Positions 3,605 through 36,285 of a stretch of 36,285 nucleotides of DNA are shown here, one piece after another (the first letter of the stretch is position 1; each line of letters begins with the position of its first letter). Under the pieces are notes generated by a model. The model was given only the letters and a program-made list of their open reading frames with translations. It was not told where the DNA came from and did no database searches. Made by a program: the position numbers and the translations under genes. Source of the stretch: an uncultured Bacteroidales bacterium (GTDB lineage: Bacteria > Bacteroidota > Bacteroidia > Bacteroidales > UBA4417); NCBI GenBank assembly GCA_903946925.1, contig CAJAXK010000150.1, positions 1 through 36,285 on the forward strand. Reading direction: 5' to 3'.

Positions 3605-3615
3605 TTTATTATTTT

Positions 3616-3746: not shown

Positions 3747-3820
3747 CCTTTCACCTTGTCACCTTGTCTCCTTCTCTCCTTGTCACCTTTCTCCTTGTCT
3801 CCCTTCTCCTTGTCTCCCTT
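3747..3820. repeat. Pyrimidine-rich ccttgtc/tcccttc repeat
   Basis: A strongly strand-biased run of 7- and 8-bp units built on ccttgtc, tccttctc and tcccttc lies directly beside the GRRRATKT array and ends about 15 bp before the stop codon of the 3836-5404 gene. On the minus strand it reads as purine-rich aaggtgac/aaggagac units. It carries no credible reading frame. Confidence 0.75.
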
Positions 3821-3835
3821 CATCTTACAAAGCAT

Positions 3836-5404
3836 CTAAACAATAACCTCCTTCTCCGCATCCCAATACGTTCGACGACCTTCTTTATAAGAAATGGTGC
3901 CCATATGTGCTGCCATTGCTTCCTGAAATGCCTGATCGATATTGCAGCTTGGCTGTGCACCATTTCCGGCCCTGATACAGTTAAGCCATTCGCGCAAATG
4001 CAAATGGGTTGTGTCAACAGCTTTTCCGTCACGGTAAGTGTAGAGCAAACCCCGCCCGGCAAAATACTTTTCGGTTGGCGAAGTAATGGCGTCAACGGCT
4101 CCCTGGCCAGGGACATATGAAAATATCGGTTTGAAGGCTTCCACAATGCCTTGTTCCAGTTTCTCCTTATAGCGGGTAGAACGTGGATCAACATTCACCA
4201 GCAAGGTATCACTTAGTTCCAGATACGCATCGTGGCCCATAATAACTTTGCCCCGGTTTTTTTCGCTGGCCAATGTGGCACTGTAAAGCAACGTGAAATC
4301 GCGGTCGGGATATTCGAGTGCCATATTCAGCACATCGGGCACTGTACGTCCATCCTTGAAAAAATATATTCCGCCGGAAGCCACCACCGAATTTGGGATT
4401 CCCAAATCAAGGATCTGGTTCAGCGCATCAAATTCGTGGGTGAACAAATCGCCGCTCAGCCCAGTGCTGTAATCCCACCAGCAACGCCAGCGGAAAAAGC
4501 GTTCGGGACTGAAATCGTGCCAGGGAGCCTGACCTATAAATTGTTTCCAATCAATTGTTTGCTCATTGGCTTCGGGTGCAATATCGTAAACCCATGCGCC
4601 GTTCGGGTCGTTGCGGTTGGTGCAAACTTCGATAAGGGAAATTTTGCCAATAACATCCTGCTTTATCAGCGAACGAGCCACATTGTAACTTTCAGTTTGC
4701 CTACCCTGATGGCCTAACTGGAAAACAACCCCGGATTTTTTAACTACATCGCGTATTTCGTACGTTTCGGCCACCGACCACGAAAGCGGTTTTTCGCAAT
4801 ACACATGTTTTCCATTTTGGGCTGCTTCAATGGCAATGGGAACATGCCAATGGTCGGGAGTGGCGACAATAACGGCATCCACATCAGGCGAAGCAATCAG
4901 TTCTTTATAGGTTGCGAATCGTTTGGGTGCATCGTCCATTGCTCCGCCTTTTCCATTGCGATGAACATTGGCCCCGGCGGCAATTGCCCGATCAGCGTTT
5001 TTATCGAACACATCGCAAATAGCGGTAATTTTAACGTTCAGGTTTTCCTGATCCCTGAAATCCTCAAGGTACTGTAACCAATATTTGTCGGTTTTGCCTT
5101 TTTCGGTGTACTCGTCAATGCGGTCGGGGTTCACAAAACCCAAGGCTTTCATCAGGTAGCCGCCACGCCCACCGCTTCCGATAATGCCAAGGCGCAAGGT
5201 TTTCCCTTCGATCAAGGGCGGGATTCCGGTTTGTATTTCGGGTTTAATATCGCTCAAAAGGCTTGAGTTGCGTTTGGCTGCTTCCGATTTGTTCCGTAAC
5301 AAACCATAACCAATTATTCCAACAATGGGCAAAGCAGCCAAGCCGGCCAAAATATCGCGGCGGCTTAATTTCCCTTTTTCATTTTCGTTTTTATCGTTTG
5401 CCAT
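3836..5404 (-). CDS. Tat-exported Gfo/Idh/MocA family oxidoreductase (long form)
   Basis: The product is 522 residues. A twin-arginine motif (LSRRDILAG, residues 13-21) precedes a hydrophobic stretch to about 36, so periplasmic export or membrane anchoring is predicted. The Rossmann loop is IIGSGGRGG near 74-82. ATPDHWH and YCEKPLSWS follow, with the family lysine at 205, and a later SGDLFTHEFD supplies the Asp/His pair. It is longer than usual because residues 90-165 form an insertion between the first strand and the conserved TPDHWH region. It starts 1 bp after the DoxX gene stop, which implies translational coupling. The likely role is oxidation of a sugar or glycoside in the envelope; the substrate is not inferable. 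Confidence 0.92.
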   Translation of the reverse strand: MANDKNENEKGKLSRRDILAGLAALPIVGIIGYGLLRNKSEAAKRNSSLLSDIKPEIQTGIPPLIEGKTLRLGIIGSGGRGGYLMKALGFVNPDRIDEYTEKGKTDKYWLQYLEDFRDQENLNVKITAICDVFDKNADRAIAAGANVHRNGKGGAMDDAPKRFATYKELIASPDVDAVIVATPDHWHVPIAIEAAQNGKHVYCEKPLSWSVAETYEIRDVVKKSGVVFQLGHQGRQTESYNVARSLIKQDVIGKISLIEVCTNRNDPNGAWVYDIAPEANEQTIDWKQFIGQAPWHDFSPERFFRWRCWWDYSTGLSGDLFTHEFDALNQILDLGIPNSVVASGGIYFFKDGRTVPDVLNMALEYPDRDFTLLYSATLASEKNRGKVIMGHDAYLELSDTLLVNVDPRSTRYKEKLEQGIVEAFKPIFSYVPGQGAVDAITSPTEKYFAGRGLLYTYRDGKAVDTTHLHLREWLNCIRAGNGAQPSCNIDQAFQEAMAAHMGTISYKEGRRTYWDAEKEVIV

Positions 5405-10771: not shown

Positions 10772-13486
10772 ATGAGCAGCATCAAAACAGCTACAATGCC
10801 TGTAACGGGCTTAACATGTGTTAATTGCGCTTCTATAATTGATACGAATGTTAAAAAAATGCCAGGTGTAAATAGCGCGAACGTTGATTTTGCCAGCGAA
10901 AAGCTTACGGTAAGTTTCGACCCCGATGTTGTGAACGAAAAAAATATTGTTGATGCAGTAAAACGTATCGGCTATGGGGTTGCCACTGGTAAAGTCGAAT
11001 TGCCCATTGTTGGGATGCAGGATAACACCGATGCTTTAACGCTTGAGAAACTCATTGCCAAACTGGATGGGGTTTTGCATGCCAGTGTTGGTTATGGGAA
11101 CGAGCGTGCAACTATTGAGTACATTCCGGGTATGACAAGTATCGCCGGGCTTGCCGCTGCCATACGTAAATCGGGATTTGATATTGTACTGGCAGGAAAA
11201 ACCGAGCAATTGGAAGATGTTGAAGCCAATGTGCGGGCGGCTGAATTGGTAAAGCAAAAAAAAATACTGCTGGTTGGGCTAATGTTCACAGTGCCGCTCA
11301 TTGTTTATAGCATGGCCCGCGACTTCCGTGTTATTGGGTTTCGTTACGATGAATTTACCATGCTTCTTGCAGCTACCGTAGTGCAGTTTTATGTGGGCTG
11401 GCAGTTTTATGTAGGTGCATTTAAAAGCCTGAGACATGGCAGTGCAAATATGGATGTACTGATAGTTTTGGGGTCATCGGCGGCATATTTTTCAAGCCTG
11501 CTGGTAACGCTTGGCGTAATTGATGGTCCACATGTTTATTTCGAAACCGGGGCTGCAATTATCACCCTTATAAAACTTGGTAAATACCTGGAAGCAGGCG
11601 CAAAAGGAAAAACCTCTGCAGCATTAAAAGCCTTAATGGGGCTGCGTGCCCTTACCGCCATTGTGATCCGCAACGGGGTTGAAACGGAGATTGAAATTGA
11701 AGATGTAGTGGTTGGCGACACCTTGCTTGTGCGGCCCGGCGGTAAAGTTCCTGTTGATGGCATTATCATCGAAGGCCATTCCGCTTTCGACGAGGCAATG
11801 TTGACAGGCGAATCCATGCCAGTGAGCAAAGGCCCTGGCGATGAGGTAATTGGTGCAACTATAAACCGCGAGGGTTTGGTAAAATTTGAAGCTACCAAAG
11901 TTGGTAAAAACACTGCATTGGCACAGATTATCAGGCTGGTGCAGGAAGCGCAGGGAAGCAAAGCACCAATACAGGAACTTACTGACAAGATTGGGAAATA
12001 TTTTGTCCCAATAATAATTGCAATTGCAATTTTCACCTTTTTGGGATGGTTTTTTGTTGCACAAACCAATTGGATTGGAGCCATGATAAATGCCATTGCC
12101 GTACTGGTGATTGCCTGCCCTTGTGCAATTGGGCTTGCTACGCCAACAGCAATTATGGTTGGGACTTCTAAGGGTGCCGGGAATGGGATTTTATTTAAGA
12201 ACAGCGAAATACTCGAACGCGCTGGGAGGGTTGATATTGTTGTGTTTGATAAAACCGGGACTTTAACAAATGGCGAACCAGAGGTAACGGATATTGTTGC
12301 CCTAAATTCGCGGAATGTTGACCAAGTGTTGCGGTTAGCCGGCAGTGCCGAGCGTGGATCCGAGCACCCTTTGGGGAAGGCTTTGGTGAAAGCAGCCCAG
12401 GAAAAAGGCTTAACACTATCCAGCACGAAGCAATTCAGGGCATTTGGGGGTTTTGGAATAAGGGCAACGGTAGAAGGTGAAACCGTAATAGTGGGCAACC
12501 TGCGGATGATGCAAAATGAAGGGGTTTATACCGATGCTTTTAAACCCGAAGTTATTAGGCTGCAAGCCGAAGGGAAAACTGCCATGGTGGTTGCCATAAA
12601 ACCCTTTGGTAGCATTGAACCATCCGTTGCAATAGGGATTATAGCCGTAGCCGATACTTTAAAGCCTGGGGCAAAGGAAGCAATTGCCAATCTGCAAAAA
12701 CTTGGTATCGAAATTCTTATGGTTACAGGCGACAACAAAAGTACGGCAAACGCCATTGCAAGCCAGGTTGGGATAAAAACTGTGTTGGCCGAAGTGCTGC
12801 CTTCCGAAAAGGCTGATGCCATTAAAAATTTGCAATTGACTGGGACTTCAGGAAAAACCGGAAACTATCAGGTAGCCATGGTAGGCGATGGCATAAACGA
12901 TGCTCCGGCATTGGCACAGGCTGATGTTGGCATTGCCATTGGAACCGGTACCGATATTGCCATGGCAGCCGCTGGAATTACGCTGATCAGTGGCGATTTA
13001 TCGGGCGTTGGCAAGGCAATTTCACTATCGCGGGGTACTTCACAAACCATTGTACAGAACCTTATTTGGGCATTGATTTACAATATAGCCTTAATACCTA
13101 TTGCCGCTTTTGGTTTGCTAAGCCCTATGTTTGCAGCCGGGGCAATGGCTTTTAGTTCCATTTTTGTAGTAACCAACAGTCTTCGATTACGCGCATTTAA
13201 AGTAATGTCGTTTACACCTCCCAAATCGCTGTTCCATCAAGTTGTTCAACTCTTGCCTCATTTAGTCCTACCAGCGGTTGCCTTGCTTGTACTTATTGCA
13301 GGGCCGTTGATACTGATGCCAGGCAATGGAATGGAAATAAATGGCATGCATACATTGGCAGCCACACCAATATCCGGTTTTATGATGGTGCTTTTCAATG
13401 TGTTGGTGGCACTCTCATTATTTTCCATCCCTGTTTTCCTGTATATCTTTTTCAGGAAAAGCAAAGGGGATAAAGGGGTTGGGTAG
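10772..13486 (+). CDS. copA: CopA-type copper-translocating P1B ATPase
   Basis: The start is taken as ATG 10772 (904 residues) because ggggaa lies upstream and the first HMA domain begins right after; a TTG start at 10730 is less likely. HMA 1 has GLTCVNC with Cys16 and Cys19. A second HMA-like fold (about 73-140) has lost its cysteines, with GMQDNTDA where CxxC belongs. The transmembrane metal motif CPC is at 449-451, the phosphorylated Asp is 493 in [18 protein letters not shown] is the nucleotide-binding HP motif, and [10 protein letters not shown] is the hinge. The protein runs about 95 residues past the usual end with two more hydrophobic helices and a Met-rich loop ([12 protein letters not shown]). 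It should export Cu(I); no chaperone or regulator gene adjoins. Confidence 0.95.
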
Positions 13487-20131: not shown

Positions 20132-20180
20132 GGATGTCGGATGTTCGATTGCGGATGTCGGATTTTAGAATGCGGATTTC
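20132..20180. repeat. Degenerate 7-bp phased repeat (7 units)
   Basis: Directly after the alpha-2-macroglobulin stop codon the sequence divides into seven 7-mers: ggatgtc, ggatgtt, cgattgc, ggatgtc, ggatttt, agaatgc, ggatttc. The unit GGATKNC recurs at 29908-29956 and, inverted, at 34767-34808. Confidence 0.85.
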
Positions 20181-24148: not shown

Positions 24149-25204
24149 CTATGTCCGAAAACTGTTTGTTCCACTTAGTGCAATCCTTGATGTGGATTCC
24201 CTCACTATTACCTTTGTTTTCATTACAATATTTTCGCGCGAAATATTTTTTTTCATATTGATGTTCGATAAAAGAAGCCGAATACTCTTTTTACCTATGG
24301 CAACACCGGGCTGATGAATAGAGGAGAGTGTGGGATAACAAACTTCGGCCAAGTCGGAATTGCTGAACCCCAATACAGCCACATCTTCTGGAACCCGAAT
24401 GCCTGCTTTTTTCAAACCAGACAAAACGCCAACGGCAACTACATCGCTTATGCAAAAAATAGCATCCGGTCGGTTTTCGAGCGACATCAGTCTTATGGCC
24501 AATGCCTCACCTTCGGCTTTGTTGAATTTATTGCACAAAATAACCCAGTCGGGGTTTAGTTCCATATTGTTTTTCAGAAGGCAGTCGCGGTATGCGTAGT
24601 AGCGTACATTGGCTAAAGTGGATGATTCTTCGCCCCGCAAATGTGCAATTTTCTTATACCCATTATCAATTAAATGCTTAATCCCTTCGGTAGTGCCGCC
24701 ATAATCGTCGGAAGCAATGCTTGGAACCGTTTTTTGATCAAATTTGATTATGCGGTCAATAATCAAAAATGGGATATCGTCCCGTATCAGGTTTTCCAGC
24801 TTATCCTTTACCAGACTAAGTTTTCTGCTTGGCAAGATTAAAATGGCATCCACATTTAATTCGTAAAACTCTTTAATATATTCCAATTCTTTAAACTGAT
24901 TATAGTTACTTTCGGCAATCAACATTTTGTACCCATTTTTACCTGCCTCAATCAACATTCCGCTAAGGATTTGGGTAACGTAATAATGCGATAGCTTAGG
25001 GAAAATAACACCGATACGGTATGATTTCTGAAACTTCAACGATAAGGCTGTTGCATTAGGTTTATAACTGTAAAGATTGGCAACTTCCTTAACCCTGTTT
25101 TTCATCGAATCGCTGATTTCGGGTTTGTCGTGAAGCGCCCTCGAAACTGTTGCAATTGTAGTATTGAGTGCTTTTGCGATGTCTTTAAGGGTAGTTTTTG
25201 TCAT
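24149..25204 (-). CDS. LacI-family transcriptional regulator
   Basis: The product is 351 residues. Residues 3-50 are the LacI helix-turn-helix (TLKDIAKALNTTIATVSRAL, then HDKPEISDSMKNRVKE), and the hinge helix PNATALSLK follows near 54-62. The rest is the periplasmic-binding-protein-like ligand domain (GVIFPKLSHYYVTQILSGM, FLIIDRI, ISDVVAVGVLSGLK). The recognition helix TVSRAL and hinge leucine are standard for binding palindromes with a central CG. The gene is divergent from the TonB-dependent receptor, and a perfect palindrome lies in between, so it very probably controls the receptor/symporter/enzyme locus and itself. The inducer is likely the imported solute or a breakdown product. Confidence 0.94.
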   Translation of the reverse strand: MTKTTLKDIAKALNTTIATVSRALHDKPEISDSMKNRVKEVANLYSYKPNATALSLKFQKSYRIGVIFPKLSHYYVTQILSGMLIEAGKNGYKMLIAESNYNQFKELEYIKEFYELNVDAILILPSRKLSLVKDKLENLIRDDIPFLIIDRIIKFDQKTVPSIASDDYGGTTEGIKHLIDNGYKKIAHLRGEESSTLANVRYYAYRDCLLKNNMELNPDWVILCNKFNKAEGEALAIRLMSLENRPDAIFCISDVVAVGVLSGLKKAGIRVPEDVAVLGFSNSDLAEVCYPTLSSIHQPGVAIGKKSIRLLLSNINMKKNISRENIVMKTKVIVRESTSRIALSGTNSFRT

Positions 25205-25235
25205 CTGTAACCTTTTAATATTCCGTTAATTGGAT

Positions 25236-25243
25236 GCAAATAT
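25236..25243 (-). promoter_or_regulatory. Candidate -7 box (TATATTTG) of lacI
   Basis: The minus strand reads TATATTTG, an exact TAnnTTTG match 32 bp before the regulator start. The operator palindrome begins 27 bp upstream, covering the zone where the -33 box should be. Confidence 0.55.
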
Positions 25244-25269
25244 AATAAATTTTCAATAAAGATGTTAAC

Positions 25270-25283
25270 CGTAAACGTTTACG
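25270..25283. promoter_or_regulatory. LacI-family operator, perfect 14-bp palindrome
   Basis: cgtaaacgtttacg reads the same on both strands and has the central CG step favoured by LacI/PurR/CcpA-type regulators (compare the AAACGTTT core of PurR sites). It lies 27 bp from the lacI -7 box and 24 bp from the receptor -7 box, so a bound repressor would cover the -33 zone of both promoters. Confidence 0.8.
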
Positions 25284-25306
25284 TAAAATACAGCCTATTG
25301 CGCATT

Positions 25307-25314
25307 TATTTTTG
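25307..25314 (+). promoter_or_regulatory. Candidate -7 box (TATTTTTG) of the TonB receptor locus
   Basis: TATTTTTG fits TAnnTTTG exactly and lies 55 bp before the receptor start. No ideal TTG -33 box is seen; the operator occupies that position, as expected for repression by steric block. Confidence 0.5.
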
Positions 25315-25368
25315 ATGTTGTTATTTTGACCCCACACAAATAACTCTAACTTCAAAACCATTAATCAA

Positions 25369-27999
25369 ATGAAAAAATCAATTTATTTTCTAGTTTGGGT
25401 GATGACATGTTTTGCGTTTACAACCATTGCGCAAACAAGTATTACCGGGTCAGTTCAGGATGCAAATGCAAAGCCCCTCCCATTTACATCCATATCGGTA
25501 AAAAACTCTACCGATGGTGCAATAGCCGATTTGAACGGGAAATTTGAACTGAAAGTCCAATCGCTTCCCGTTACCATTGTTGCAAGTTATACTGGGTATA
25601 ATTCAAAAGAGTTGGTTGTTACTAATGCTGAACCCTTAATCATAATCCTTACCGAAGGAGTCGGGCTTAACGAGGTAATGGTTACCGGTACCAAAGTTAT
25701 TCGGTCGCAAAAGCAATCTGCCATGTCGATGACAACCATGAAAGGCAAGGATATCCAGCTCAAAGCAGCAAGCGGACAAGCGGATATATTATCGGCTATT
25801 CCTGGCATTACCGCCGAAGGCAGTGGTGGCGAAGTTGCGGCCAACGTATTCGTAAGGGGGCTTCCTTCAGGTGGCCAATATACATTTAACCCACTCGAAA
25901 TTGATGGTATGCCCGTTATCAGTACATTTGGATTGAACTCATCGGCCCATGATGTATATTTCAGAAACGATCTTGGCATCAAATCGCTCGATTTTCCACG
26001 TGGTGGTTCTGCAATTTTGTTCGGTGCAGGTTCCGTAGCAGGTTTGATCAACTATATTTCGAAAACAGGAACCGAGACTCCTGAAAATACGATTCAGTTA
26101 GAATTAGCCGACAAAGGCCGTTACAAAGCCGACTTTTTCACCGGAGGGAAAATGGGTGGAAAAGATTCACATACCTATTACGCATTGAGCGGATTATACC
26201 GTTATGACGAAGGCCCTATTGTTACAGGATTGCCAACCGAAGGATTTCAGTTACGTGGCAATATTAAACAGGTATTTGCAAAAGGGGAAATTATTATGTC
26301 CGGACAATACATTGACGATAAAGTACAATTTTACGGGCCATTGCCGCTTGACGGAACCAGCAGGGAGGCTGCAATAGGGAACGATGGCGAAGAGGTACAA
26401 ACCATCATGACCAAACATGCAAAAAATGCTTCCTTTTTATCCCCCGACGGTGTATATCATACCCCAATCGGCGATGGCGTTGTTACCAAAGGCGGATATT
26501 TTATGTCGCAATTCAAATACAAATTTGAGAATAACATTACTATTGATTCCAAACTGCGTTATGCCCGCTACCAGCATCAGTTCAATTTCTTTGTGGCTGG
26601 CTCCGGCAACCCTATTTCGATTGCTGACTACGTAACCGGAATAGATCCAACAGCAACCGGAATTGTTGCAAAAAGCACCGGATTATCCAAAGTGCTTCCG
26701 AACAACTATTTGGTTACAGCCAATACCTTATTGGATCGCTACCGTCCAATGACCGACCTTTCGGGCGAATTTAACCTAACAAAGCGGATTACAGGCAATA
26801 CAATTGAACACAATATTACTATTGGCGCATTCTTTTCGAGAAGCGAAGCAGAAGATAAAAACATACAGACCGGTTACTTGAGCGAATTCAACAACATGCC
26901 GCTTTTGGTTGACCTATCCTATACCACTGGTGCAGGCGATAAAGTAATATACAGCAAAAACGGTATTTATAAACCGGGTGCTGCCTATTCCAACAATTTC
27001 GTTACCGCGAACCGCCAGGCTTTTTATTTGACCAACGAAATGAAAATGGATCGGTTGCGGATTGATGTTGGACTCCGTTTGGAAACCTTGGTAACCGATG
27101 TTTCGAAAGAAGGAAACACAACATACACCATGAGCAGCGATGCCAGTTTGACATCCAGCTTGAAAACCGTAAAATGGGGGAACAACGCTTACCTTACCGG
27201 AACCGGAAAAGCTACCGATTGGGCTGGAGTACTTGGCCTTAACTACCAATTGAACGAAAAAATGAACGTTTATGGAAACGTTTCAAAAGGCTATTTCTTT
27301 CCTCAGCCACGAACCCTGGCTATTTCGAGCGATGGAACTGTTGGATCCTATGAAACCGAAAAAATTTATCAAACCGAAGTTGGGGTTAAATATTCGACTC
27401 GCCGTTTAACCGCCACCTTGGCAGGATATTATATTGACCTGAGCAACAGAAGGGATGTAATTTTAGTAGATGACCCAAACAACCCTGGAACCATCATTGA
27501 AAAAGTATCGGTAATAAGCACCCGCACTTTTGGCCTTGAAGCTACCTGGGAATACAAAATAGTTAAAAACTTAAACTTCAACGGTAGTTTTACCTATCAA
27601 AACCACGAATATACCGAGAATGAAACTACCCCCGATTATGTAGGGAACAAATTGGCCCGTCAACCTAATCTGTTGTCGTCGTTGGCTTTATCTTATTCAA
27701 ACAAAAAATATGATGCCAATGTTTCGGTTGATAACACAGGGAAAAAATACACTGACGACTCGAATAAAGTGCTATTGGAAGCTGCAAGCGTAGTAAGGCT
27801 CGATGCTGGTTATACCATGCCAATGGGAGAATCGAACGAAACCTTGCGGTTTGGGCTTTCAGTGTTTAATTTGCTCGACAGCAAAGGGTTAACAGAAGGA
27901 AACCCCCGTGATTTATCGCAAGCTAACCAAGGTGTTTATTTTGTTGGCCGTCCGGTGCTTCCCAGAAGGGCATTCCTTCGTTTCACACTTAATTTCTAA
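25369..27999 (+). CDS. TonB-dependent outer-membrane receptor with CarboxypepD_reg-like domain
   Basis: The product is 876 residues. A signal peptide runs to about TTIAQ, and a CarboxypepD_reg-like beta domain covers about 24-105 (ITGSVQDANAKPLPFTSISV). The plug domain follows (ILSAIPGITAEGSGGEVAAN, FVRGLPSGGQYTFNPLEIDG, GAGSVAGLINYISK), then a 22-strand-type barrel ending RRAFLRFTLNF with the C-terminal Phe needed for barrel insertion. No SusD-like lipoprotein is adjacent, so it resembles FecA/BtuB-type small-ligand receptors more than SusC polysaccharide importers. It heads the LacI-controlled locus. The proposed cargo, glycerate-based glycosides, is inferred from the downstream enzymes. 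Confidence 0.94.
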   Translation: MKKSIYFLVWVMTCFAFTTIAQTSITGSVQDANAKPLPFTSISVKNSTDGAIADLNGKFELKVQSLPVTIVASYTGYNSKELVVTNAEPLIIILTEGVGLNEVMVTGTKVIRSQKQSAMSMTTMKGKDIQLKAASGQADILSAIPGITAEGSGGEVAANVFVRGLPSGGQYTFNPLEIDGMPVISTFGLNSSAHDVYFRNDLGIKSLDFPRGGSAILFGAGSVAGLINYISKTGTETPENTIQLELADKGRYKADFFTGGKMGGKDSHTYYALSGLYRYDEGPIVTGLPTEGFQLRGNIKQVFAKGEIIMSGQYIDDKVQFYGPLPLDGTSREAAIGNDGEEVQTIMTKHAKNASFLSPDGVYHTPIGDGVVTKGGYFMSQFKYKFENNITIDSKLRYARYQHQFNFFVAGSGNPISIADYVTGIDPTATGIVAKSTGLSKVLPNNYLVTANTLLDRYRPMTDLSGEFNLTKRITGNTIEHNITIGAFFSRSEAEDKNIQTGYLSEFNNMPLLVDLSYTTGAGDKVIYSKNGIYKPGAAYSNNFVTANRQAFYLTNEMKMDRLRIDVGLRLETLVTDVSKEGNTTYTMSSDASLTSSLKTVKWGNNAYLTGTGKATDWAGVLGLNYQLNEKMNVYGNVSKGYFFPQPRTLAISSDGTVGSYETEKIYQTEVGVKYSTRRLTATLAGYYIDLSNRRDVILVDDPNNPGTIIEKVSVISTRTFGLEATWEYKIVKNLNFNGSFTYQNHEYTENETTPDYVGNKLARQPNLLSSLALSYSNKKYDANVSVDNTGKKYTDDSNKVLLEAASVVRLDAGYTMPMGESNETLRFGLSVFNLLDSKGLTEGNPRDLSQANQGVYFVGRPVLPRRAFLRFTLNF

Positions 28000-28017
28000 T
28001 AGAAATATCATCGGGAA

Positions 28018-28097
28018 TCCTTTTTCCGAAAAAGGAATAAATTCCTATTCACAGCCGATATCGGTAAATTGCCGGAAGGGTATTAAAGCCCTTCCGG
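28018..28097 (+). terminator. Hairpins between receptor and symporter genes
   Basis: Three inverted repeats lie in the 155-bp gap: an 8-bp stem tcctttt.../...aaaagga with a ccg loop at 28018-28036, the palindrome ccgatatcgg at 28055-28064, and a strong 9-bp GC-rich stem CCGGAAGGG/CCCTTCCGG (loop tattaaag) at 28072-28097 followed by ttaattt. They could attenuate transcription or protect the receptor mRNA, leaving less symporter than receptor message. Confidence 0.55.
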
Positions 28098-28154
28098 TTA
28101 ATTTAAACAACAAGTTCCTCATTTTAAATGGCATAAACATTAAAAACTAAACTT

Positions 28155-29798
28155 ATGAATTGGCTCGATTTTGTAATTATTTTCCTGTATTTCGGAGGTT
28201 TCCTGGGGATGGGTTACTTTTTTAAAGAGAACAATAATTCAACCGATTATTTCCTTGGCGGTAAAAGCATGGGATGGTTTCCATTAAGCTTATCCGCCAT
28301 GGCAACGCAACTTTCGGCTATCAGCTTTGTATCGGCGCCGGCATTTGTTGCAATAAAAGCCGGAGGCGGGATGAAATGGCTTTCGTTTGAATTTTCGGTC
28401 CCCCTGGCCATGCTTTTCCTGATAATTGTGATTGTGCCACCCTTGTTCAGGTCGGGTGTGGTAAGTATCTACGAGTTTGTCGAAAGACGGTACGATGCAT
28501 CAACCCGAATGATTCTGAGTGTGGTTTTTCAAATTAGCCGATCATTAAGCACAGGGGTAATGGTTTATACCATTGCCATCATCCTTCAGGCCGTACTCGA
28601 TATCGATTTCATTTATACCATTATCATAATCAGTGTAATAACAATCATTTACTCGTGGCAGGGAGGCATGAAAGCGGTGGTTTGGGGCGACACCATACAA
28701 ATGATTCTTTTGTTTGCCGGATTGCTTATTTGTTTGGGTTACGGATATTTTATGATGGTAGCGAACGGTGGTTCACTGGCAAATGTTGACCCTGAACGGT
28801 TTCGGGTTATCCAAAATAATTTTGGACTTGGCGATGGTGGCGAATACGGATTTTGGCCCATGATAATAGGTGGATTTTTCCTTTACGCATCGTATTACGG
28901 CACTGACCAAACACAGGCCCAACGTGTTCTATCGGCTAAAGACGAAAAAACAGCCCGAACCTTATTGTTTGCAAATGGCTTGCTTCGTTTACCCGTAGTT
29001 TTGGTTTATTGCACCATGGGGCTTGTTTTGGCAGGTTTCTTAATGGTGACACCCGATTTTATGGATGCGATCAGTGCAACAACACAAAAATATTTTCCAG
29101 AAGAGTTTGCAGCTTATGGTGCTAAAGCCGACTTGATGTTACCGGTTTACATCATCAAATATATGCCACACGGAATAATTGGGATAATGATGGTTGCCAT
29201 TTTGTCGGCAGCCATGTCAACACTTTCTTCCACTATCAACTCATTGTCGGCAGTAACTGTCGAAGACTTTTTTAACCGGGGGAAAGAAAAGCTTACCGAT
29301 GTTAAATACATGGTGCTTTCAAAGGCTTCCGTTGTTTTTTGGGGTGGTGTTTGTATTGGAAGCGCTTTTCTTTTTGGCGACAGCCAAAGTGCCGTAATAG
29401 AAATAATCAATGCAATAGGATCGGTATTTTACGGGCCGGTGCTTGCCACTTTTGTTTTGGCCATTTATTCCAAAAAAGTTAATAAACATGGCATAAAAGC
29501 CGGGATTATTATTGCTGTACTTGTCAACTTATTGTTTTCCAATACCATGCAAGGGATTATCGGCTTCGATCCCGGGTTCAATATTTTTTGGATTTGGCTA
29601 AACTTCACCGGTTTTGCGATGTGTGTTGTCATTGCATATTTGGTAAGCTTCGTTTTCCCCGACAAGGAGAATAAGGTACTTGAAGTAAATTTCAAACTAC
29701 GAAAAGAAGATTTCTTGGTTAAAGAAACATACATTTTGGTTGGTTTCTTTTTCGCAATTGTTGTTTTCAGTTACTTCCTGCCTCAAATTTTCGGTTAA
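28155..29798 (+). CDS. Sodium:solute symporter family transporter
   Basis: The product is 547 residues with about 13-14 hydrophobic helices, the normal SSS size and layout. The N-terminus NWLDFVIIFLYFGGFLGMGY, then DYFLGGKSMGWFPLSLSAMA and TQLSAISFVSAPAF, is the typical helix 1-2 region with the serine/threonine-rich sodium site. Later AAMSTLSSTINSLSAVTVED is the conserved helix 8 segment containing the Na2-site serines. Relatives of the SGLT branch carry sugars, sialic acid or inositol. Its place between the outer-membrane receptor and the enzymes suggests it moves the glycoside from periplasm to cytosol with sodium. Confidence 0.94.
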   Translation: MNWLDFVIIFLYFGGFLGMGYFFKENNNSTDYFLGGKSMGWFPLSLSAMATQLSAISFVSAPAFVAIKAGGGMKWLSFEFSVPLAMLFLIIVIVPPLFRSGVVSIYEFVERRYDASTRMILSVVFQISRSLSTGVMVYTIAIILQAVLDIDFIYTIIIISVITIIYSWQGGMKAVVWGDTIQMILLFAGLLICLGYGYFMMVANGGSLANVDPERFRVIQNNFGLGDGGEYGFWPMIIGGFFLYASYYGTDQTQAQRVLSAKDEKTARTLLFANGLLRLPVVLVYCTMGLVLAGFLMVTPDFMDAISATTQKYFPEEFAAYGAKADLMLPVYIIKYMPHGIIGIMMVAILSAAMSTLSSTINSLSAVTVEDFFNRGKEKLTDVKYMVLSKASVVFWGGVCIGSAFLFGDSQSAVIEIINAIGSVFYGPVLATFVLAIYSKKVNKHGIKAGIIIAVLVNLLFSNTMQGIIGFDPGFNIFWIWLNFTGFAMCVVIAYLVSFVFPDKENKVLEVNFKLRKEDFLVKETYILVGFFFAIVVFSYFLPQIFG

Positions 29799-29868
29799 AG
29801 GATCGCTTTCTGCCACCTCTGGGTTTGGTTGGTGCTTGGTTGCAGGGTGGTAGAAAGCGCCTTTACCG
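29792..29868. terminator. Long inverted repeat across the symporter stop codon
   Basis: The arms pair in three blocks: CGG/CCG, TAAAGG/CCTTTA, and CGCTTTCTGCCACC/GGTGGTAGAAAGCG with one G-U pair. That makes about 23 bp of stem with two small bulges on the left arm (one T, then AT) and a 28-nt G/T-rich loop. The TAA stop (29796-29798) is inside the left arm. No U-tract follows, so it may be a processing or stabilising structure rather than a classical terminator. Confidence 0.7.
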
Positions 29869-29907
29869 GATAATAATTCAAGTGGAGGATGTTCTTAAAA
29901 TAATTGT

Positions 29908-29956
29908 GGATTTCGGATTGCAGATTGCGGATTGCGGATTGCGGATTGCGGATTGC
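29908..29956. repeat. 7-bp phased repeat ggattgc (7 units)
   Basis: Seven 7-mers in register: ggatttc, ggattgc, agattgc, then four perfect ggattgc copies, followed by ggaa. Isolated ggattgcggat pieces reappear at 29996-30006 and 30052-30060. It lies in the 357-bp gap between the symporter and phosphorylase genes, which otherwise holds the hairpin at 29792-29868 and a direct repeat. Confidence 0.9.
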
Positions 29957-29961
29957 GGAAA

Positions 29962-30047
29962 ATAACCATTAACTCAATAACCAATAACCATTTACGGATT
30001 GCGGATAATAACCATTAACTCATTAACTCAATAACCAATAACCATTT
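29962..30047. repeat. Direct repeat of ataaccattaactc type
   Basis: A 32-bp sequence starting ataaccattaactcaa at 29962-29993 recurs at 30008-30047 with an 8-bp internal duplication (attaactc). Each copy is itself made of ataacc and taactc pieces, so this is nested repetition next to the ggattgc array. Confidence 0.85.
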
Positions 30048-30121
30048 GCAGATTGCGGATTTGAAACAAACCATGATTACCAACAAAACCTAATCTTTTC
30101 GAGCGGCATCAAAACAAAACA

Positions 30122-30151
30122 TTGGCTGCCAACTCACAGAATTTATTTTTC
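30122..30151 (+). promoter_or_regulatory. Possible internal promoter before the phosphorylase gene
   Basis: TTG at 30122-30124, a 19-bp spacer and TATTTTTC at 30144-30151 nearly match the phylum consensus (last base C instead of G). Transcription would begin at or within a few bases of the ATG at 30156, so the message would be nearly leaderless if this start codon is right. Confidence 0.3.
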
Positions 30152-30155
30152 GGAG

Positions 30156-31811
30156 ATGGATCAAATAAGAGCAAACATAAAATGCCTTTATCCCGACCAG
30201 TCTAAATCGGTGATGATAAGTATTGCCGTGCTTTTATCAAAATACCAATCATTGTTCTCTCCCGAAAACCATGGTTTTCAAGTTAACGACATCATTCTGA
30301 TAACGTATGCCGAGAGCTTTAAAAACGTATCGGAAAGCGGTTTGCAAACCTTAAATAAAGTCTGTAAAAAATACCTTTCCGGTTCAATAAACAGCATCCA
30401 TATCCTTCCGTTTTATCCTTCTACATCCGACGATGGGTTTTCGGTTACCGATTATAAAAAAGTGAATCCGAAATATGGGAATTGGGATGACATCAGGAAA
30501 ATAGGTGAATCATTCCACTTAATGTTTGATGCGGTAATTAACCATATTTCCAAATCATCCGGTTGGTTCATCTATTATCTGAATGGGGATACTGAATTCG
30601 ACGATTTCTTTATCGAAGGGGATCCAAGAAATGCTGAACTTGCAAAAGTAATTCGCCCAAGGACTTCGCCTTTGTTGCATACATACATCCGGAAAGGGGA
30701 AGAAATTAATATCTGGACTACTTTTTCGGAAGACCAGGTTGATTTAAACTATTCGAACCCGAAGGTATTTCTTAAAGTTTTGGATGTGCTGTTGTTTTAC
30801 ATATCCAAAGGCGCAAAATTCATCCGTTTGGATGCCATCGCTTTTTTATGGAAAACCATCGGTACCAATTGTTTGCACCTCGATGAAACACATCTTGTAG
30901 TACAAACCTACCGGAGAATAATCGAACGTATTGCGCCCCACACAGTCCTGATTACCGAAACCAATGTGCCGCACGCCGAAAACATATCCTATTTCGGAAC
31001 AGGGTGCAACGAGGCGCACATGGTTTACAATTTTAGCTTGCCTCCACTTCTGGCATACAGCCTCTTGAACGAAAATGTTGAAATCCTGACCCGCTGGGCC
31101 AATTCGCTCCGGCTTCCTTCCGGCCAATGTTGCTTTTTCAATTTTACGGCCAGCCACGATGGGATAGGTTTGCGGCCTTTGCAAGGTTTGATAAGTGATG
31201 AAGCCATTCGCGAACTGGCAAAAACTGCAATACGAAATGGTGGCTTTGTTTCATCAAAATCAAATGCCGATGGAACAACATCGCCCTACGAAATTAACTG
31301 CAATTACTTGGATTTGCTTACCGTTCCAAATGCAGAAAACCAGTTAAGGGCGAAACGGTTTATGCTCACCCAATCGGTTATGCTCTGTATGCCAGGCGTT
31401 CCGGGAATTTATTATCATTCGTTGTTTGGTTCGGGAAACGATCGCCAGGGAGCAATCAATTCAGGGATAAACCGTAGGATCAACCGGGAGAAAATTCAGT
31501 TTGCCGTTTTGGAAAACGAATTACAAACGTCGGGAAACATTAGGCAACTTGTATTCCAGCAATACACCGATTTACTTCAGTTAAGAAAGCAGGAAGCGGC
31601 TTTTCATCCGACAGGCAAAGCCAGATTTACAAACGACGAGGGTGTTTTTGTGATAGAGCGGATTTATGACAATGAAACCATCGTTTGCCTGCACAATTTC
31701 TCCGGAAAACAGAAGGACATCAGCAAATACACGGATAACAAACTTTGTTTAACAAATAATAATCCGAACAAAAATATACCCGAACCTTATGGTTTCGAGT
31801 GGTTTAAGTAA
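30156..31811 (+). CDS. ycjM: Glucosylglycerate phosphorylase-like GH13_18 enzyme
   Basis: The product is 551 residues, close to E. coli YcjM (about 559), and has no signal peptide, so it is cytosolic. The GH13 nucleophile is Asp226 in FIRLDAIAFLWK, the acid/base is Glu268 in ITETNVPHAENISYFG, and the stabilising Asp335 is in ASHDGIGLRPL. The blocks HILPFYPSTSDDGFSV, PRTSPLLHTY, WTTFSEDQVDLNY and GTTSPYEIN match the sucrose-phosphorylase subfamily, and NVPH-x-ENISYFG-x-G is as in glucosylglycerate phosphorylases. Reaction by family: glucosylglycerate plus phosphate gives alpha-glucose-1-phosphate plus D-glycerate. A glycerate kinase two genes downstream strongly favours this over sucrose. The start codon is uncertain because cggag directly abuts the ATG. 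Confidence 0.9.
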   Translation: MDQIRANIKCLYPDQSKSVMISIAVLLSKYQSLFSPENHGFQVNDIILITYAESFKNVSESGLQTLNKVCKKYLSGSINSIHILPFYPSTSDDGFSVTDYKKVNPKYGNWDDIRKIGESFHLMFDAVINHISKSSGWFIYYLNGDTEFDDFFIEGDPRNAELAKVIRPRTSPLLHTYIRKGEEINIWTTFSEDQVDLNYSNPKVFLKVLDVLLFYISKGAKFIRLDAIAFLWKTIGTNCLHLDETHLVVQTYRRIIERIAPHTVLITETNVPHAENISYFGTGCNEAHMVYNFSLPPLLAYSLLNENVEILTRWANSLRLPSGQCCFFNFTASHDGIGLRPLQGLISDEAIRELAKTAIRNGGFVSSKSNADGTTSPYEINCNYLDLLTVPNAENQLRAKRFMLTQSVMLCMPGVPGIYYHSLFGSGNDRQGAINSGINRRINREKIQFAVLENELQTSGNIRQLVFQQYTDLLQLRKQEAAFHPTGKARFTNDEGVFVIERIYDNETIVCLHNFSGKQKDISKYTDNKLCLTNNNPNKNIPEPYGFEWFK

Positions 31812-31845
31812 GATTTAGGAATATTCCACAATTAACATTTACAAG

Positions 31846-34677
31846 ATGAAAAAGAAAACCGCACATATAATTTCGCACACGCATTGGGATAGGGAATGGT
31901 ATTTAAACAGCAAATACACCAACGAATGGTTGATCCCGTTTTTTGATAACCTGTTTAAAATGTTCGAAAAAGAACCCGATTATATTTTTGTCCTCGACGG
32001 GCAAATGGCAATGGTTGAAGACTATTTCGAAGAATTGGATAAACACAATTATAACCTGAATGAGTATAAACGTAAAATCAGGAAATATGTAGGTCAAAAC
32101 CGGCTTTTCATAGGTCCTTATTACCTTCAACCCGATTGGCAACTTTTAAGTGACGAATCGCTTGTGCGCAACCTCACTTATGGTATTCAAGCAGCTAAAG
32201 AACTTGGTGGCGCCATGAAGGTGGGTTGGATGCTGGATAATTTTGGGCAAATCTCGCAAACTTCGCAAATACACACACAGTTCAATCTGGAGGGCTTGTT
32301 TGTTTGGCGCGGTGTCGAAATGGATTTGAATAATGTCCGATCTGAATTTCTTTGGAAATCGCCCGATGGAACTTCAATTCCTGCAATATACCTATTGGAT
32401 AGCTACCGCAATGTAATGCGCCTGGCCGAATACAACGATATTATGAAGGACAGGATTTACGACGAAGTAAAAAAACTGTCGCCCTTTGCAACAACAAGTC
32501 ATGTTCTGTTAATGAACGGGTACGATCAGGAAATGATCCCCGACGATATTCAGCCGTACATTACAGGAGGCAAAATGGATTCAGAAGATTTGGAGGTAAT
32601 CCAAAGCAATCCTGTAAAATACATTCACGATGTAATGAGCGAAAATCCACAACTGAACACACTTGAAGGTGCCCTTTACAGTGGCCGTTTCATCTCGGTT
32701 TTCCCCGGTGTTATGTCTGCACGAATGTATTTGAAACTTCAAAACGATCAGCAGCAAAAAGCGCTCCAACAGAGGGTTGAACCTTTATCGGCATTGGTTT
32801 GGGCATTAGGTGGCGAGTATGAAAAAACACAAATCAGGGAAGCATGGAAAACCCTGTTGAAAAACCATCCACACGACAGTATTTGTGGCGTAAGCATTGA
32901 TGATGTGCATACCGATATGGAAAACCGCACACGGGTTGTAAACCAGCTTACACAGTCGTTGACAGAACAAAAATTAAAAGAACTCTGTGGCCTGATTGAT
33001 ACATCGAAATGTGCCGATAATGAAGTGAAAGTGGTTTTCAATACATCCATGCAAAACCGTTCGGCAAATGTTGAATTTGAAAGCGGTAATTACTTTGTGA
33101 AAGATATTCCGGCCATGGGATATAAAATTGTTGAAAAACAAGATGATTCCATGGATCAAGTAAGGGTTGATGGCCTGAAGTTGTCAAACAACAAAATTAC
33201 AGTTCAATTTAACGGCAATGGCTCCTTTAACCTCCTGTTGCACGAAAACAACCAATTATTCGAAAACCTTGGAATAATTGAAGATCGCGCTGATACAGGC
33301 GACGAGTACAACTATTCGTATCCCGACAAGGATTTGATAATTACGAGCATGGATTGCAAAGCCGAAATGTCGGTTGTTGAACAAAGCAAAACCAAAGCAG
33401 TTGTTCGAGTAAAATTGGAATTGGAACTGCCTGAATCGGATGCCGAAGAGCATACGATGCGCAGTGCTACGTTAAGGAAACTGCCCATTGTTAATTATTA
33501 TACTATCGAAGCAGATTCTGCTATCGTTAAATGCCAGACGTTGCTTCGTAATACCGTTAAGGATCACCTGATGCGTGTATTGTTTAAAACGGGAATCGAA
33601 ACAAAATACGCCTTTGCAGGCAGCCCATTCGATGTGGTTGAAAGGCCTATCCACATTGACGATTACGATGAATCCGCGATACCTGAAGATGTTAAAAAAG
33701 TAATTATCGGCGCAAGGGAAGCCAGGCCAAATACCATCTTTTTAAACCGTGAATTTGTTGACTTAAACGATGGCATTTCAGGATTAGCCGTTTTATCTAA
33801 AGGACTTCCTGAATACCAAGTAATTGACAAAGATACAGTTGCACTCACACTTTTCCGTTCAGTTGGTTGGATTGCAAAAGAAATTAACTCACGGATTGGT
33901 GATGCAGGGCCAGAAATTTTTACCCCCGATGCACAGTGTTTGCGCGAAATGGAATTCGAATATGCCGTTTATCCTCATTTGAACGATACCACCACGGGGA
34001 AAGTTTGCCAAACTGCCAGCCTGTTCAACCAAGAATTAATTGCCGTTACCACCGACAAACACGAAGGGATATTGCCTGCTTCGAACAGTTATTTTTCACT
34101 TTCCTATTCACTTGATTCCGTAAAAGTTACTGCCACCAAACGGAGTGAAGACAATAAATCTTTAATAATCCGGGGTTACAATTCGGCTGAAGCAGATACT
34201 GAAGTTCGGTTAAATTGTTTTTTTGCTTTAAAACAGGCACATTTAACCAATTTACTTGAAGAGGAAACGGAACAACTCAACATCACCAACCAACAGGCAA
34301 AATTCATGGTTGGTCCTAAAAAAATATTCACGGTGAAGCTGGATATTTGCAAAGAGCAAAATACCGTTAATGACACTTGTGGATTAACCTACGAACAAAG
34401 CAGGAAGAAAGAATCTTTCGATGGATACGAATATGCAACCTATGTAACTGAAGAAGACATAAACAACGAATTGGATAGGGCCGGGAAACTCAAAGAAAAA
34501 ATCGAACACCCTATGTTTCGGAGAAGTGCACTTGAGGCTCAATTGTCGGCTATACTAACACAAAACAGAAAGCACGAAAGGCGAATTAGGGAGCTTGGTT
34601 ATGGCCTGAATGAAGCAAGGGTGCAGCGACGGGTTTACGATTACATAAAACAATTCAAAAACCCCGATAAAGAATAA
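31846..34677 (+). CDS. GH38 alpha-mannosidase, MngB (mannosylglycerate hydrolase)-like
   Basis: The product is 943 residues with no signal peptide, so it is cytosolic. HTHWDREW gives zinc ligands His13 and Asp15. The nucleophile is Asp131 in GWMLDNFGQ, and NHPHDSICG gives the last ligand His343 before Asp344. The GH38 barrel and middle domain cover about 1-400; beta domains follow, with TGDEYNYSYPDKD and GLAVLSKGLPEYQV as in E. coli MngB. MngB hydrolyses mannosyl-6-phosphate-glycerate made by a PTS; no PTS gene is here, so an unphosphorylated mannosyl compound is more likely. The last 75 residues are a charged helical tail beyond the usual MngB length. It follows the phosphorylase gene by 34 bp, which suggests co-transcription. 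Confidence 0.88.
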   Translation: MKKKTAHIISHTHWDREWYLNSKYTNEWLIPFFDNLFKMFEKEPDYIFVLDGQMAMVEDYFEELDKHNYNLNEYKRKIRKYVGQNRLFIGPYYLQPDWQLLSDESLVRNLTYGIQAAKELGGAMKVGWMLDNFGQISQTSQIHTQFNLEGLFVWRGVEMDLNNVRSEFLWKSPDGTSIPAIYLLDSYRNVMRLAEYNDIMKDRIYDEVKKLSPFATTSHVLLMNGYDQEMIPDDIQPYITGGKMDSEDLEVIQSNPVKYIHDVMSENPQLNTLEGALYSGRFISVFPGVMSARMYLKLQNDQQQKALQQRVEPLSALVWALGGEYEKTQIREAWKTLLKNHPHDSICGVSIDDVHTDMENRTRVVNQLTQSLTEQKLKELCGLIDTSKCADNEVKVVFNTSMQNRSANVEFESGNYFVKDIPAMGYKIVEKQDDSMDQVRVDGLKLSNNKITVQFNGNGSFNLLLHENNQLFENLGIIEDRADTGDEYNYSYPDKDLIITSMDCKAEMSVVEQSKTKAVVRVKLELELPESDAEEHTMRSATLRKLPIVNYYTIEADSAIVKCQTLLRNTVKDHLMRVLFKTGIETKYAFAGSPFDVVERPIHIDDYDESAIPEDVKKVIIGAREARPNTIFLNREFVDLNDGISGLAVLSKGLPEYQVIDKDTVALTLFRSVGWIAKEINSRIGDAGPEIFTPDAQCLREMEFEYAVYPHLNDTTTGKVCQTASLFNQELIAVTTDKHEGILPASNSYFSLSYSLDSVKVTATKRSEDNKSLIIRGYNSAEADTEVRLNCFFALKQAHLTNLLEEETEQLNITNQQAKFMVGPKKIFTVKLDICKEQNTVNDTCGLTYEQSRKKESFDGYEYATYVTEEDINNELDRAGKLKEKIEHPMFRRSALEAQLSAILTQNRKHERRIRELGYGLNEARVQRRVYDYIKQFKNPDKE

Positions 34678-34766
34678 GTATGATGCTACTGCGAATGGAA
34701 TTTAACCTTTTAGAGGTCAGAAATCGGAAGACAGAAGTACCTTTGGAAAAGAAAAATCCTACTCTG

Positions 34767-34808
34767 TACTTCCCACATCCGCCATCCGACTTCCAACTTC
34801 CAACATCC
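34767..34808. repeat. Inverted copy of the 7-bp GGAT repeat (6 units)
   Basis: On the minus strand this reads ggatgtt, ggaagtt, ggaagtc, ggatggc, ggatgtg, ggaagta, the same 7-bp register as at 20132-20180 but in opposite orientation. It fills part of the 189-bp gap between the mannosidase and glycerate kinase genes. Confidence 0.8.
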
Positions 34809-34866
34809 GACATACTATAAACACCACTAACCAAGCAATAGAGCCAATTTCCCAAATAATTCTGCC

Positions 34867-35991
34867 ATGAAGTTTGTAATTGCCCCCGATAAATTTAAAG
34901 GCTCGCTAACGGGTATTGAATTTTGCGATATTGTCGAAAAGGGGATTCTGGAAATTGCGCCTCATTCCGAAATATACAAACTTCCCCTTGCTGATGGAGG
35001 TGACGGAACTGTGGAAGTTCTTAAATACTATCTTGGTGGCGAAATTATACATGTAACGGTACAAAACCCGATTGGAAAACCAACACCTGCAACTTATTTA
35101 TTCTCAAAAAACAAGCATCTTGCATTTATCGAGATGGCTGAGGCTTCAGGTATAAAGCTCCTCACAAATGAGCAATTAAACCCTCTCGAAACCACAACAT
35201 TTGGAACAGGCCAGTTATTACTGCATGCCATTGAACTTGGGGCAAAGCATATAATTTTAGGCATTGGCGGAAGCGCAACCAATGATGCGGGCATGGGAAC
35301 GGCCAGGGCATTGGGATATCAATTTTTTGACGTCAATAACCATGAACTTGAAGGTAGGGGTAAAGACCTATCACAGCTTTACAGAATTGACGCTTCGCAA
35401 AAACGTGTTGAACTTGACCGGGTATCATTTGAAATTGCCTGCGACGTAAATAATCCGTTATTTGGAACCGAAGGCGCAGCTTATGTGTATGCACCCCAGA
35501 AAGGCGCCGACAGCAAAATAGTTCAGGAATTAGATAAGGGATTGGAGAATTTCAACAATGTGGTTTTAAGGCAATACGGCATCAACCTTCAGGAAATTAA
35601 GGGTGCTGGTGCCGCAGGCGGGCTGGGCGCAGGAAGTATTTGCTTCCTGAATGCTACGCTAAAACCGGGTATTGAATTGATAAAGTCAATCGTAGATTTT
35701 GACAAAATCATAGAAAATGCGGATTGGATAATTACCGGGGAAGGCAAATTTGACGATCAAACATTTTCGGGAAAAGTGATTAAAGGAATAATAGACTCAA
35801 TATCAAACCAAAGATTAGCTGTTTTTTGCGGCACCAGCCAACTCTCGGAACATCAAATTAAGCAACATGGTATTGATTACATTGACCAAATGACAAATTA
35901 TGCTACTGATATAAACGATTCGATTAAAAACTCAAAAACCTATCTGAAAATGTCTGCCCGAAAATTTGCCAGATTGTTGCAGGGAAATTGA
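34867..35991 (+). CDS. Glycerate kinase (GarK/GlxK family)
   Basis: The product is 374 residues, normal for the family. The N-terminal signature KFVIAPDKFKGSLTGIEFCD and LPLADGGDGTVEVL (about 40-53) are diagnostic. Then come FIEMAEASGI, the glycine-rich GIGGSATNDAGMG, PQKGAD, GAGAAGGLGAG and ITGEGKFDDQTFSGKV. Family enzymes phosphorylate D-glycerate with ATP; the GarK/GlxK group gives 2-phosphoglycerate, which enters lower glycolysis. Placed after the phosphorylase and mannosidase genes, it would use the glycerate they release, completing the pathway. Confidence 0.95.
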   Translation: MKFVIAPDKFKGSLTGIEFCDIVEKGILEIAPHSEIYKLPLADGGDGTVEVLKYYLGGEIIHVTVQNPIGKPTPATYLFSKNKHLAFIEMAEASGIKLLTNEQLNPLETTTFGTGQLLLHAIELGAKHIILGIGGSATNDAGMGTARALGYQFFDVNNHELEGRGKDLSQLYRIDASQKRVELDRVSFEIACDVNNPLFGTEGAAYVYAPQKGADSKIVQELDKGLENFNNVVLRQYGINLQEIKGAGAAGGLGAGSICFLNATLKPGIELIKSIVDFDKIIENADWIITGEGKFDDQTFSGKVIKGIIDSISNQRLAVFCGTSQLSEHQIKQHGIDYIDQMTNYATDINDSIKNSKTYLKMSARKFARLLQGN

Positions 35992-36151: not shown

Positions 36152-36203
36152 TAGCACAACATCGTTGACACTTTAAATTGTAGCACAACATCGTTGACAC
36201 TTT
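36152..36203. repeat. Two 23-bp direct repeats, 29-bp period
   Basis: The copies at 36152-36174 and 36181-36203 are identical over 23 bp; a 6-bp spacer (aaattg) separates them. They do not resemble the 7/8-bp arrays elsewhere in the window. Confidence 0.9.
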
Positions 36204-36254
36204 TTTAGCAAATCGTTCTTTGACATAATTTTTTCGTATTGTTCTGATAAAAAA

Positions 36255-36285
36255 ATGAACGAATACGAGAAACGAAAAGTAGCTA
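36255..36285 (+). CDS. Start of a truncated reading frame, possible transposase
   Basis: Ten codons are visible from ATG 36255 (MNEYEKRKVA) before the sequence ends. The charged N-terminus would suit a DNA-binding protein, and the direct repeats upstream suggest a transposase, but ten residues cannot identify a family. Confidence 0.3.
   Translation, partial: MNEYEKRKVA

Follow-up and report, generated by a model that had tools for sequence, protein, structure and literature searches.

A Bacteroidales locus predicted to import and degrade glycerate glycosides combines a putative glucosylglycerate phosphorylase with a divergent GH38 mannosidase

Introduction

Many microbes under stress produce mannosylglycerate and glucosylglycerate as solutes, and red algae likewise produce mannosylglycerate. 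Genes for the degradation of mannosylglycerate (digeneaside) were reportedly described for Zobellia galactanivorans by Barbeyron et al. in 2016. Here, we analyzed a six-gene locus in a stretch of 36,285 nucleotides (hereafter, the window) from an uncultured Bacteroidales bacterium (GTDB UBA4417; assembly GCA_903946925.1). The window is the entire contig C150 (CAJAXK010000150.1) of a 6.17 Mb genome in 498 contigs. The locus encodes a LacI-family regulator, a TonB-dependent receptor, a sodium:solute symporter (SSF), a predicted glucosylglycerate phosphorylase (GGaP) of glycoside hydrolase (GH) subfamily GH13_18, a GH38 alpha-mannosidase and a glycerate kinase. As far as can be judged from sequence, it very probably imports and degrades glycerate glycosides made by other organisms.

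The closest described systems each share part of this gene set. Escherichia coli mngRAB, like the window locus as predicted here, pairs a regulator with a GH38 that acts on a mannosyl-glycerate (MngB reaction: PMC2815779), but import is by a phosphotransferase system (PTS) and the substrate is phosphorylated, whereas the window has a TonB receptor and a sodium symporter, with a GGaP and a kinase added. The E. coli ycj operon (YcjM, an ATP-binding cassette (ABC) importer and the kojibiose phosphorylase YcjT) contains a GGaP with the same signatures as that of the window, and differs in its ABC importer and oxidoreductases, none of which are among the six window locus genes by Pfam. In Photobacterium sp. 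DA100 and Vibrio sp. THAF191d, a GH38 gene adjoins a GGaP gene, as in the window, but import is by PTS and the GH38 lies on the MngB side of the tree. The flavobacterium Z. galactanivorans is comparable for its mannosylglycerate trait, which we know through PMC8072126, where Maribacter is described as having homologues of the digeneaside-degradation genes characterized in Z. galactanivorans; the likeness is one of trait. MngB with a PTS, YcjM, and the GH63 mannosyl-/glucosylglycerate hydrolases are already known enzymes, and the window is a variant combination. In the open-access literature searched, we found neither a TonB/symporter locus with a GGaP nor a GH38 in such a locus described. We know of no described route dedicated to the breakdown of mannosylglucosylglycerate (MGG).

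Results

The original prediction for this DNA had proposed a self-contained uptake-and-breakdown locus for glycerate solutes, with LacI, TonB receptor, symporter, GH13, GH38 and kinase genes in that order. All six open reading frames (ORFs) were intact at the predicted coordinates and matched their families (Table 1), and the functional part of the proposal is supported by context, namely the GGaP signatures and the sister loci described below. The five genes from the TonB receptor to the kinase run in one direction, with LacI divergent; the successive gaps are 155, 357, 34 and 189 bases, the tightest being that between GH13_18 and GH38. A Pfam scan of the 18 window proteins returned neither SusD nor PTS, as had also been predicted, and the TonB receptor, with a 155-base gap on its 3′ side, does not form a SusC–SusD pair. 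The contig ends 294 bases past the kinase, so one more downstream gene is possible. The kinase and GH38 have no obvious signal peptide, and a hydrophobic stretch in GH13_18 starts only at residue 18 (simple hydropathy); the locus enzymes are probably cytoplasmic.

GGaP is told from sucrose phosphorylase by a (T/S)ETN motif on beta-strand 5 and by Glu in place of Gln in loop A (PMC7178133). The window GH13_18 carries ITETN and TSPYEIN, and therefore both signatures (the E. coli YcjM loop reads RSPYEIN). In an alignment of 56 rows, in which YcjM was counted twice and from which homologues of ≤420 residues had been excluded beforehand, TETN and the loop-A Glu were found in 48 of 48 GGaP-type rows and in 0 of 8 other GH13 rows. 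Across 443 residues, the window protein shares 48% identity with YcjM. A 47-row tree, built after nine of the 56 rows (six amylosucrase-like) had been removed, groups it with the enzymes of L047, L106, L042, L043 and L044 and with four planctomycetal enzymes in a clade of 10 rows (99/100), and a separate 28-row clade holds mostly same-order and same-phylum enzymes. On these grounds the YcjM-like assignment of the original prediction stands, and GH13_18 is predicted to have glucosylglycerate phosphorylase activity. The best NCBIfam model was sucrose_gtfA, at 216 bits and under its cut-off of 334. Sucrose phosphorylase identity was rejected, since identity was 26–30% to plasmid-borne gtfA versus 39–47% to GGaP- or ycj-type proteins, the GGaP motifs are present, and another GH13_18-like host protein has a DVHQ loop. 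This second protein lies on host contig C256 (L035, 1339–2808), and it shares this loop with the promiscuous sucrose 6F-phosphate phosphorylase (PMC7178133).

Orthologues of the window importer were found in genomes of three other families (G296, G894 and G675). In each of them, the TonB query had a single match at E ≤ 1e-20, located at the locus and 44–46% identical; the best paralogue in the host genome has 28%. The SSF is 50–61% identical to its locus orthologues; in the genome searches, its matches at the locus had 52–61% and those elsewhere at most 33%. Both proteins are orthologous across the four loci, and each of the three other-family loci also has an adjoining glycerate kinase. Because the LacI/TonB-SSF-GGaP-kinase order is repeated in another family (L047, with GH63 between TonB and SSF), the gene set appears to be beyond chance. 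The LacI proteins at matching places in the window and L047 are 36% identical over 336 residues. The sister loci L047, L106 and L148 differ from the window in carrying GH63 for GH38, in having GGaP in two of the three, and in having LacI in one and AraC in two. No GH38 homologue was found in the stretches read of these three loci, and no GH63 among the 18 window proteins scanned; a search of the host genome with the GH63 query P0009 was likewise negative at E ≤ 1e-30.

The GH63 proteins of the sister loci are of the mannosylglycerate-hydrolase type. Against PF22422 ('mannosylglycerate hydrolase MGH1-like'), those of L047, L106 and L148 score 303, 275 and 297 bits, and that of Meiothermus taiwanensis (L137), in the order LacI-ABC importer-GH63-GGaP, scores 374. 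On the NCBIfam model 'glucosylglycerate hydrolase', the L047 and L106 proteins reach 317 and 276 bits, both under the cut-off of 550. The nearest solved relative of the L047 GH63 is the 2z07/4wva sequence, followed by 6g3n (deposited as 'mycobacterial hydrolase'); 4wva is the Thermus mannosylglycerate hydrolase, and the mycobacterial GH63 glucosylglycerate hydrolase accepts both glucosylglycerate and mannosylglycerate (PMC6608630). In an alignment of the four GH63s, inspection by eye showed conserved motifs at most of the residues which that paper lists. A GH63 search of 247 class genomes gave matches in three; TonB, SSF and kinase homologues adjoin only in G675, and are absent from the stretches read in G037 and G667. 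G675 was apparently within the class sample screened for GGaP and had no GGaP match there.

L106 also encodes an MGG-synthase homologue (11661–12974; 397 bits against a cut-off of 640). With this gene inside the uptake operon, the cell may turn what it imports back into a protectant of its own. In L048 (10668–11927) and L058 (7489–8757), the ORF immediately upstream of GGaP resembles the L106 homologue at its N-terminus; the L048 ORF matches Glycos_transf_1 (Pfam), and a reverse-running GGaP could feed such synthesis.

Table 1. Annotated features of the window, with the gene orders of the three sister loci
Feature	Coordinates	Strand	Remarks
LacI-family regulator	24149..25204	-	PF00356 and PF13377 above cut-off; divergent from operon
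TonB-dependent receptor	25369..27999	+	CarboxypepD_reg, plug, barrel; hydrophobic N-terminus; no adjoining SusD gene
Sodium:solute symporter (SSF)	28155..29798	+	PF00474 and TIGR00813 above cut-off; predicted inner-membrane importer
GH13_18, predicted GGaP	30156..31811	+	TETN and PYE signatures, YcjM identity, clade
GH38 alpha-mannosidase	31846..34677	+	Four GH38 Pfam domains; catalytic residues intact; predicted mannosylglycerate or MGG enzyme
Glycerate kinase	34867..35991	+	PF02595 439 bits (cut-off 23), TIGR00045 412 bits (cut-off 168)
Perfect 14-bp palindrome CGTAAACGTTTACG	25270..25283		Between divergent LacI and TonB genes; candidate LacI operator
Period-7 tandem repeats	29903..30046		SSF-GGaP spacer; no role assigned
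Locus L047 (G296)			LacI / TonB-GH63-SSF-GGaP-kinase
Locus L106 (G894)			AraC / TonB-GH63-SSF-MGG-synthase homologue-GGaP-kinase
Locus L148 (G675)			AraC / TonB-GH63-SSF-kinase; no GGaP seen; kinase at contig end, GGaP beyond possible

In the window GH38, residues H13, D15, D131, D227 and H343 align with SpGH38 H13, D15, D125, D232 and H351 (2wyh alignment, chain positions read as 22 higher), for which the zinc ligands, nucleophile and acid/base are given in PMC2815779. The label 'MngB-like', which the enzyme had received in the original prediction, is not supported as a subfamily assignment: its PRK09819 (MngB) score is 477 bits against a cut-off of 1138, six ordinary GH38s score 393–568, and in a GH38 tree of 30 rows (four distant rows were dropped beforehand) it falls outside the MngB clade (90/86), though the approximately unbiased (AU) test does not reject inclusion (AU p 0.158). 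Reference scores on the same model were 1413 for L135 (annotated mngB), 1341 for L130 and 713 for Photobacterium L132. Identity to E. coli MngB is 26%. No close relatives turned up: at E ≤ 1e-30, 19 of 389 other phylum genomes and 0 of 98 other relatives gave a match. The best match has 38% identity along the first 419 residues, and the highest identity in any piece is 43%, along ~180 residues. Among the ORFs of 14 stretches around other phylum GH38s there was no GlyK or GGaP homologue (the listing for L117 lacked its GH38 ORF), and one stretch (L119) had a weak SSF match of 23%. Single-sequence structure prediction of the enzyme gave a mean predicted local distance difference test (pLDDT) score of 34 and was unusable. 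A glycerate-glycoside substrate is assigned to GH38 mainly because loci with the orthologous importer hold GH63 where the window holds GH38; this context favours the view that GH38 occupies the place of GH63.

The window GH38 has a charged C-terminal extension of ~110 residues (34342–34677, residues about 833–943) past the end of the MngB alignment. A second host GH38, on contig C174 (L066, 269–3637), has 1122 residues and a hydrophobic N-terminus, is very distant from the window enzyme and is perhaps exported.

Elsewhere, two Vibrionaceae records place GH38 beside GGaP in the order PTS EIIBC-GH38-GGaP-EIIA: L132 of Photobacterium sp. DA100 and L143 of Vibrio sp. THAF191d. The stretches read there contain no homologue of a glycerate kinase. 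A separate MngB in the Photobacterium record (L133) is 64% identical to that of E. coli, and Vibrio sp. THAF190c (L130) has an MngB (63% to that of E. coli) followed by a glycerate kinase. For plasmid records, the neighbourhoods read numbered 9 of 236 matching at E ≤ 1e-40 for GGaP and 7 of 128 for GH38. Two of the nine GGaP neighbourhoods have the GH38-GGaP pair and one has a GH63; L153 adjoins a HAD hydrolase and a glycosyl transferase, and L146 has LacI with ABC and tripartite ATP-independent periplasmic (TRAP) importer genes.

Across the phylum, 29 of 395 genomes (host included) matched GGaP at E ≤ 1e-40, six of them amylosucrase-like, which gives 22 carriers besides the host; one carrier (G336) has two fragments only and was outside the motif check. 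At E ≤ 1e-60, 9 of 198 same-order genomes matched, host included, and in the class sample 2 of 395, namely the host and G894. Neighbourhoods were read for seven of the eight non-host carriers in the order: all seven have an adjoining ORF with a GpgS-type N-terminus, and five have a kinase, one of these five being cut by the contig end. The GpgS family NF040724 matched in the same-order genomes G436 and G524 (369 and 385 bits, under the cut-off of 700), both of which carry GGaP, and at E ≤ 0.001 did not match in G296, G894 or G675.

The spacer between the divergent LacI and TonB genes holds the palindrome listed in Table 1. A perfect 14-bp palindrome arose in 166 of 5000 mononucleotide shuffles of this spacer (3.3%), and the whole window contains four; the matching spacer of L047 contains GCAAACGTTTGC. 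A role as LacI operator is suggestive, with modest statistics. Promoter-like and terminator-like sites were not more numerous than in shuffles. Further tandem repeats with a period of 7–8 or multiples lie at 34768–34813 and 20132–20177 (both intergenic) and at 3613–3722 (within coding sequence), and the repeat units in the window include ATTGCGG, AATAACC, TCCGACA, GGATGTC and TTTGAGGATGTGGGGA. The motif GATTGCGGATT or its complement was found again on another host contig (L066, near 8744 and 11874). Within 36152–36285, a direct repeat TAGCACAACATCGTTGACAC at 36152 and 36181 is followed by a possible truncated ORF start at the contig end; this perhaps marks the edge of an insertion element at which the assembly broke off. 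At the other end of the window, three GFO/IDH/MocA oxidoreductases and a xylose-isomerase-like protein stand in a row (145–5404), perhaps a separate sugar-modification cluster.

Discussion

The gene content, the GGaP signatures, the orthology of the transporters over four loci and the GH63 in three sister loci all point to a locus for importing and degrading glycerate glycosides from other organisms. From these we infer that import takes place, as well as the substrate, the compartment, the order of the reactions and how the locus is regulated. The LacI repressor probably controls the locus, perhaps via the palindrome. The TonB receptor would carry the intact solute over the outer membrane and the sodium symporter over the inner membrane, after which cytoplasmic GH38 would cleave off mannose, GGaP with phosphate would convert glucosylglycerate to glucose 1-phosphate and glycerate, and the kinase would phosphorylate the glycerate.

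Several observations weigh against this scheme. Loci of the TonB/SSF type number only four, that of the window included. Of the 22 phylum GGaP neighbourhoods, 19 were read and importer genes were present in one only: G296 alone had adjoining TonB, SSF, kinase and LacI homologues, some stretches having been shortened by contig ends. Four of the nine plasmid GGaP neighbourhoods (L134, L144, L145 and L147) are ycj-like with GH65 instead, and by the counts in these nine a mannosidase adjoining GGaP is a minority arrangement. The window GH38 forms a lone branch of length 2.1, with ≤35% identity to any row of its tree. The locus encodes no kinase for the free mannose, a negative that covers the locus and not the rest of the genome. 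For conservation of gene order, the lack of which the original prediction had named as a refutation, the outcome is mixed: three other families share the TonB-SSF-kinase core, but GH38 occurs in one of the four TonB/SSF loci, that of the window, and neither GGaP (E ≤ 1e-60) nor the window GH38 (E ≤ 1e-30) was found in any of 15 same-genus genomes, three of them only 64–74% complete. With neither enzyme found in these relatives, the locus looks acquired, or often lost.

Within the glycerate-glycoside scheme, the two enzymes may act in parallel or in series, and we regard these arrangements as about equally likely, neither quite reaching an even chance. In parallel, the importer would take up mannosylglycerate for GH38 and glucosylglycerate for GGaP. 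Two related loci look single-substrate, as this would have it: L148, which has GH63 but showed no GGaP, and L044 (SSF-GGaP-kinase), with no GH38 or GH63 homologue in 13.6 kb. The dual specificity of the mycobacterial GH63 (PMC6608630) is consistent with it as well, but the GH38-GGaP pairing in Photobacterium, which has a separate MngB, is left unexplained. In series, MGG would be the true substrate, GH38 taking the outer mannose and leaving glucosylglycerate for GGaP. This would suit the position of GH38 beside GGaP, 34 bases apart, and the repetition of the pair with a PTS in Photobacterium and Vibrio; because Photobacterium has a separate MngB, its second GH38 probably acts on another substrate. 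The MGG-synthase homologue in the L106 operon (below its cut-off) and the planctomycetal affinity of the nearest GGaPs in the tree, including one of Rhodopirellula baltica, a species that accumulates MGG, point the same way. On the other side, L148, in which no GGaP was seen, combines the same importer with GH63 and fits mannosylglycerate alone, and the Vibrionaceae GH38s are only 25–26% identical to that of the window. We tentatively put forward a more specific form, for which the odds are somewhat unfavourable: dedicated MGG scavenging, with TonB/sodium-symporter import and a GH38-to-GGaP relay that would yield mannose, glucose 1-phosphate and glycerate, a divergent GH38 lineage having replaced GH63.

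An ordinary mannosidase for mannan or N-glycans that merely happens to lie in the operon is an improbable reading of GH38. Its PRK09819 score resembles those of ordinary GH38s and its isolated branch would agree with such an origin, but the 18 window proteins scanned include no SusD and no second mannosidase match, hydropathy gives the enzyme no evident signal peptide, in contrast to the host's other GH38, and the sister loci carry an enzyme of the mannosylglycerate-hydrolase type. Turnover of the cell's own glucosylglycerate, as proposed for GGaP elsewhere, is more improbable still: GpgS-type N-termini do stand beside GGaP in the seven same-order neighbourhoods, and the one such ORF scored (L108) reaches 369 bits on GpgS_Meth, under the 700 cut-off, but the window operon includes importer genes, its GGaP lies outside the 28-row clade containing those seven, and the host (G000) has no NF040724 match at E ≤ 0.001, which counts against turnover of an own solute within a search of that single family, mannosylglycerate synthase not having been searched for.

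Natural consumers of mannosyl- and glucosylglycerate are little documented, and the window locus and its relatives offer a testable set of importers and enzymes for glycerate glycosides. They suggest a possible physiological role for GGaP in organisms not thought to accumulate glucosylglycerate, a question raised in PMC7178133, and they point to an apparent exchange of unrelated hydrolase families, GH38 and GH63, at one step of a pathway.

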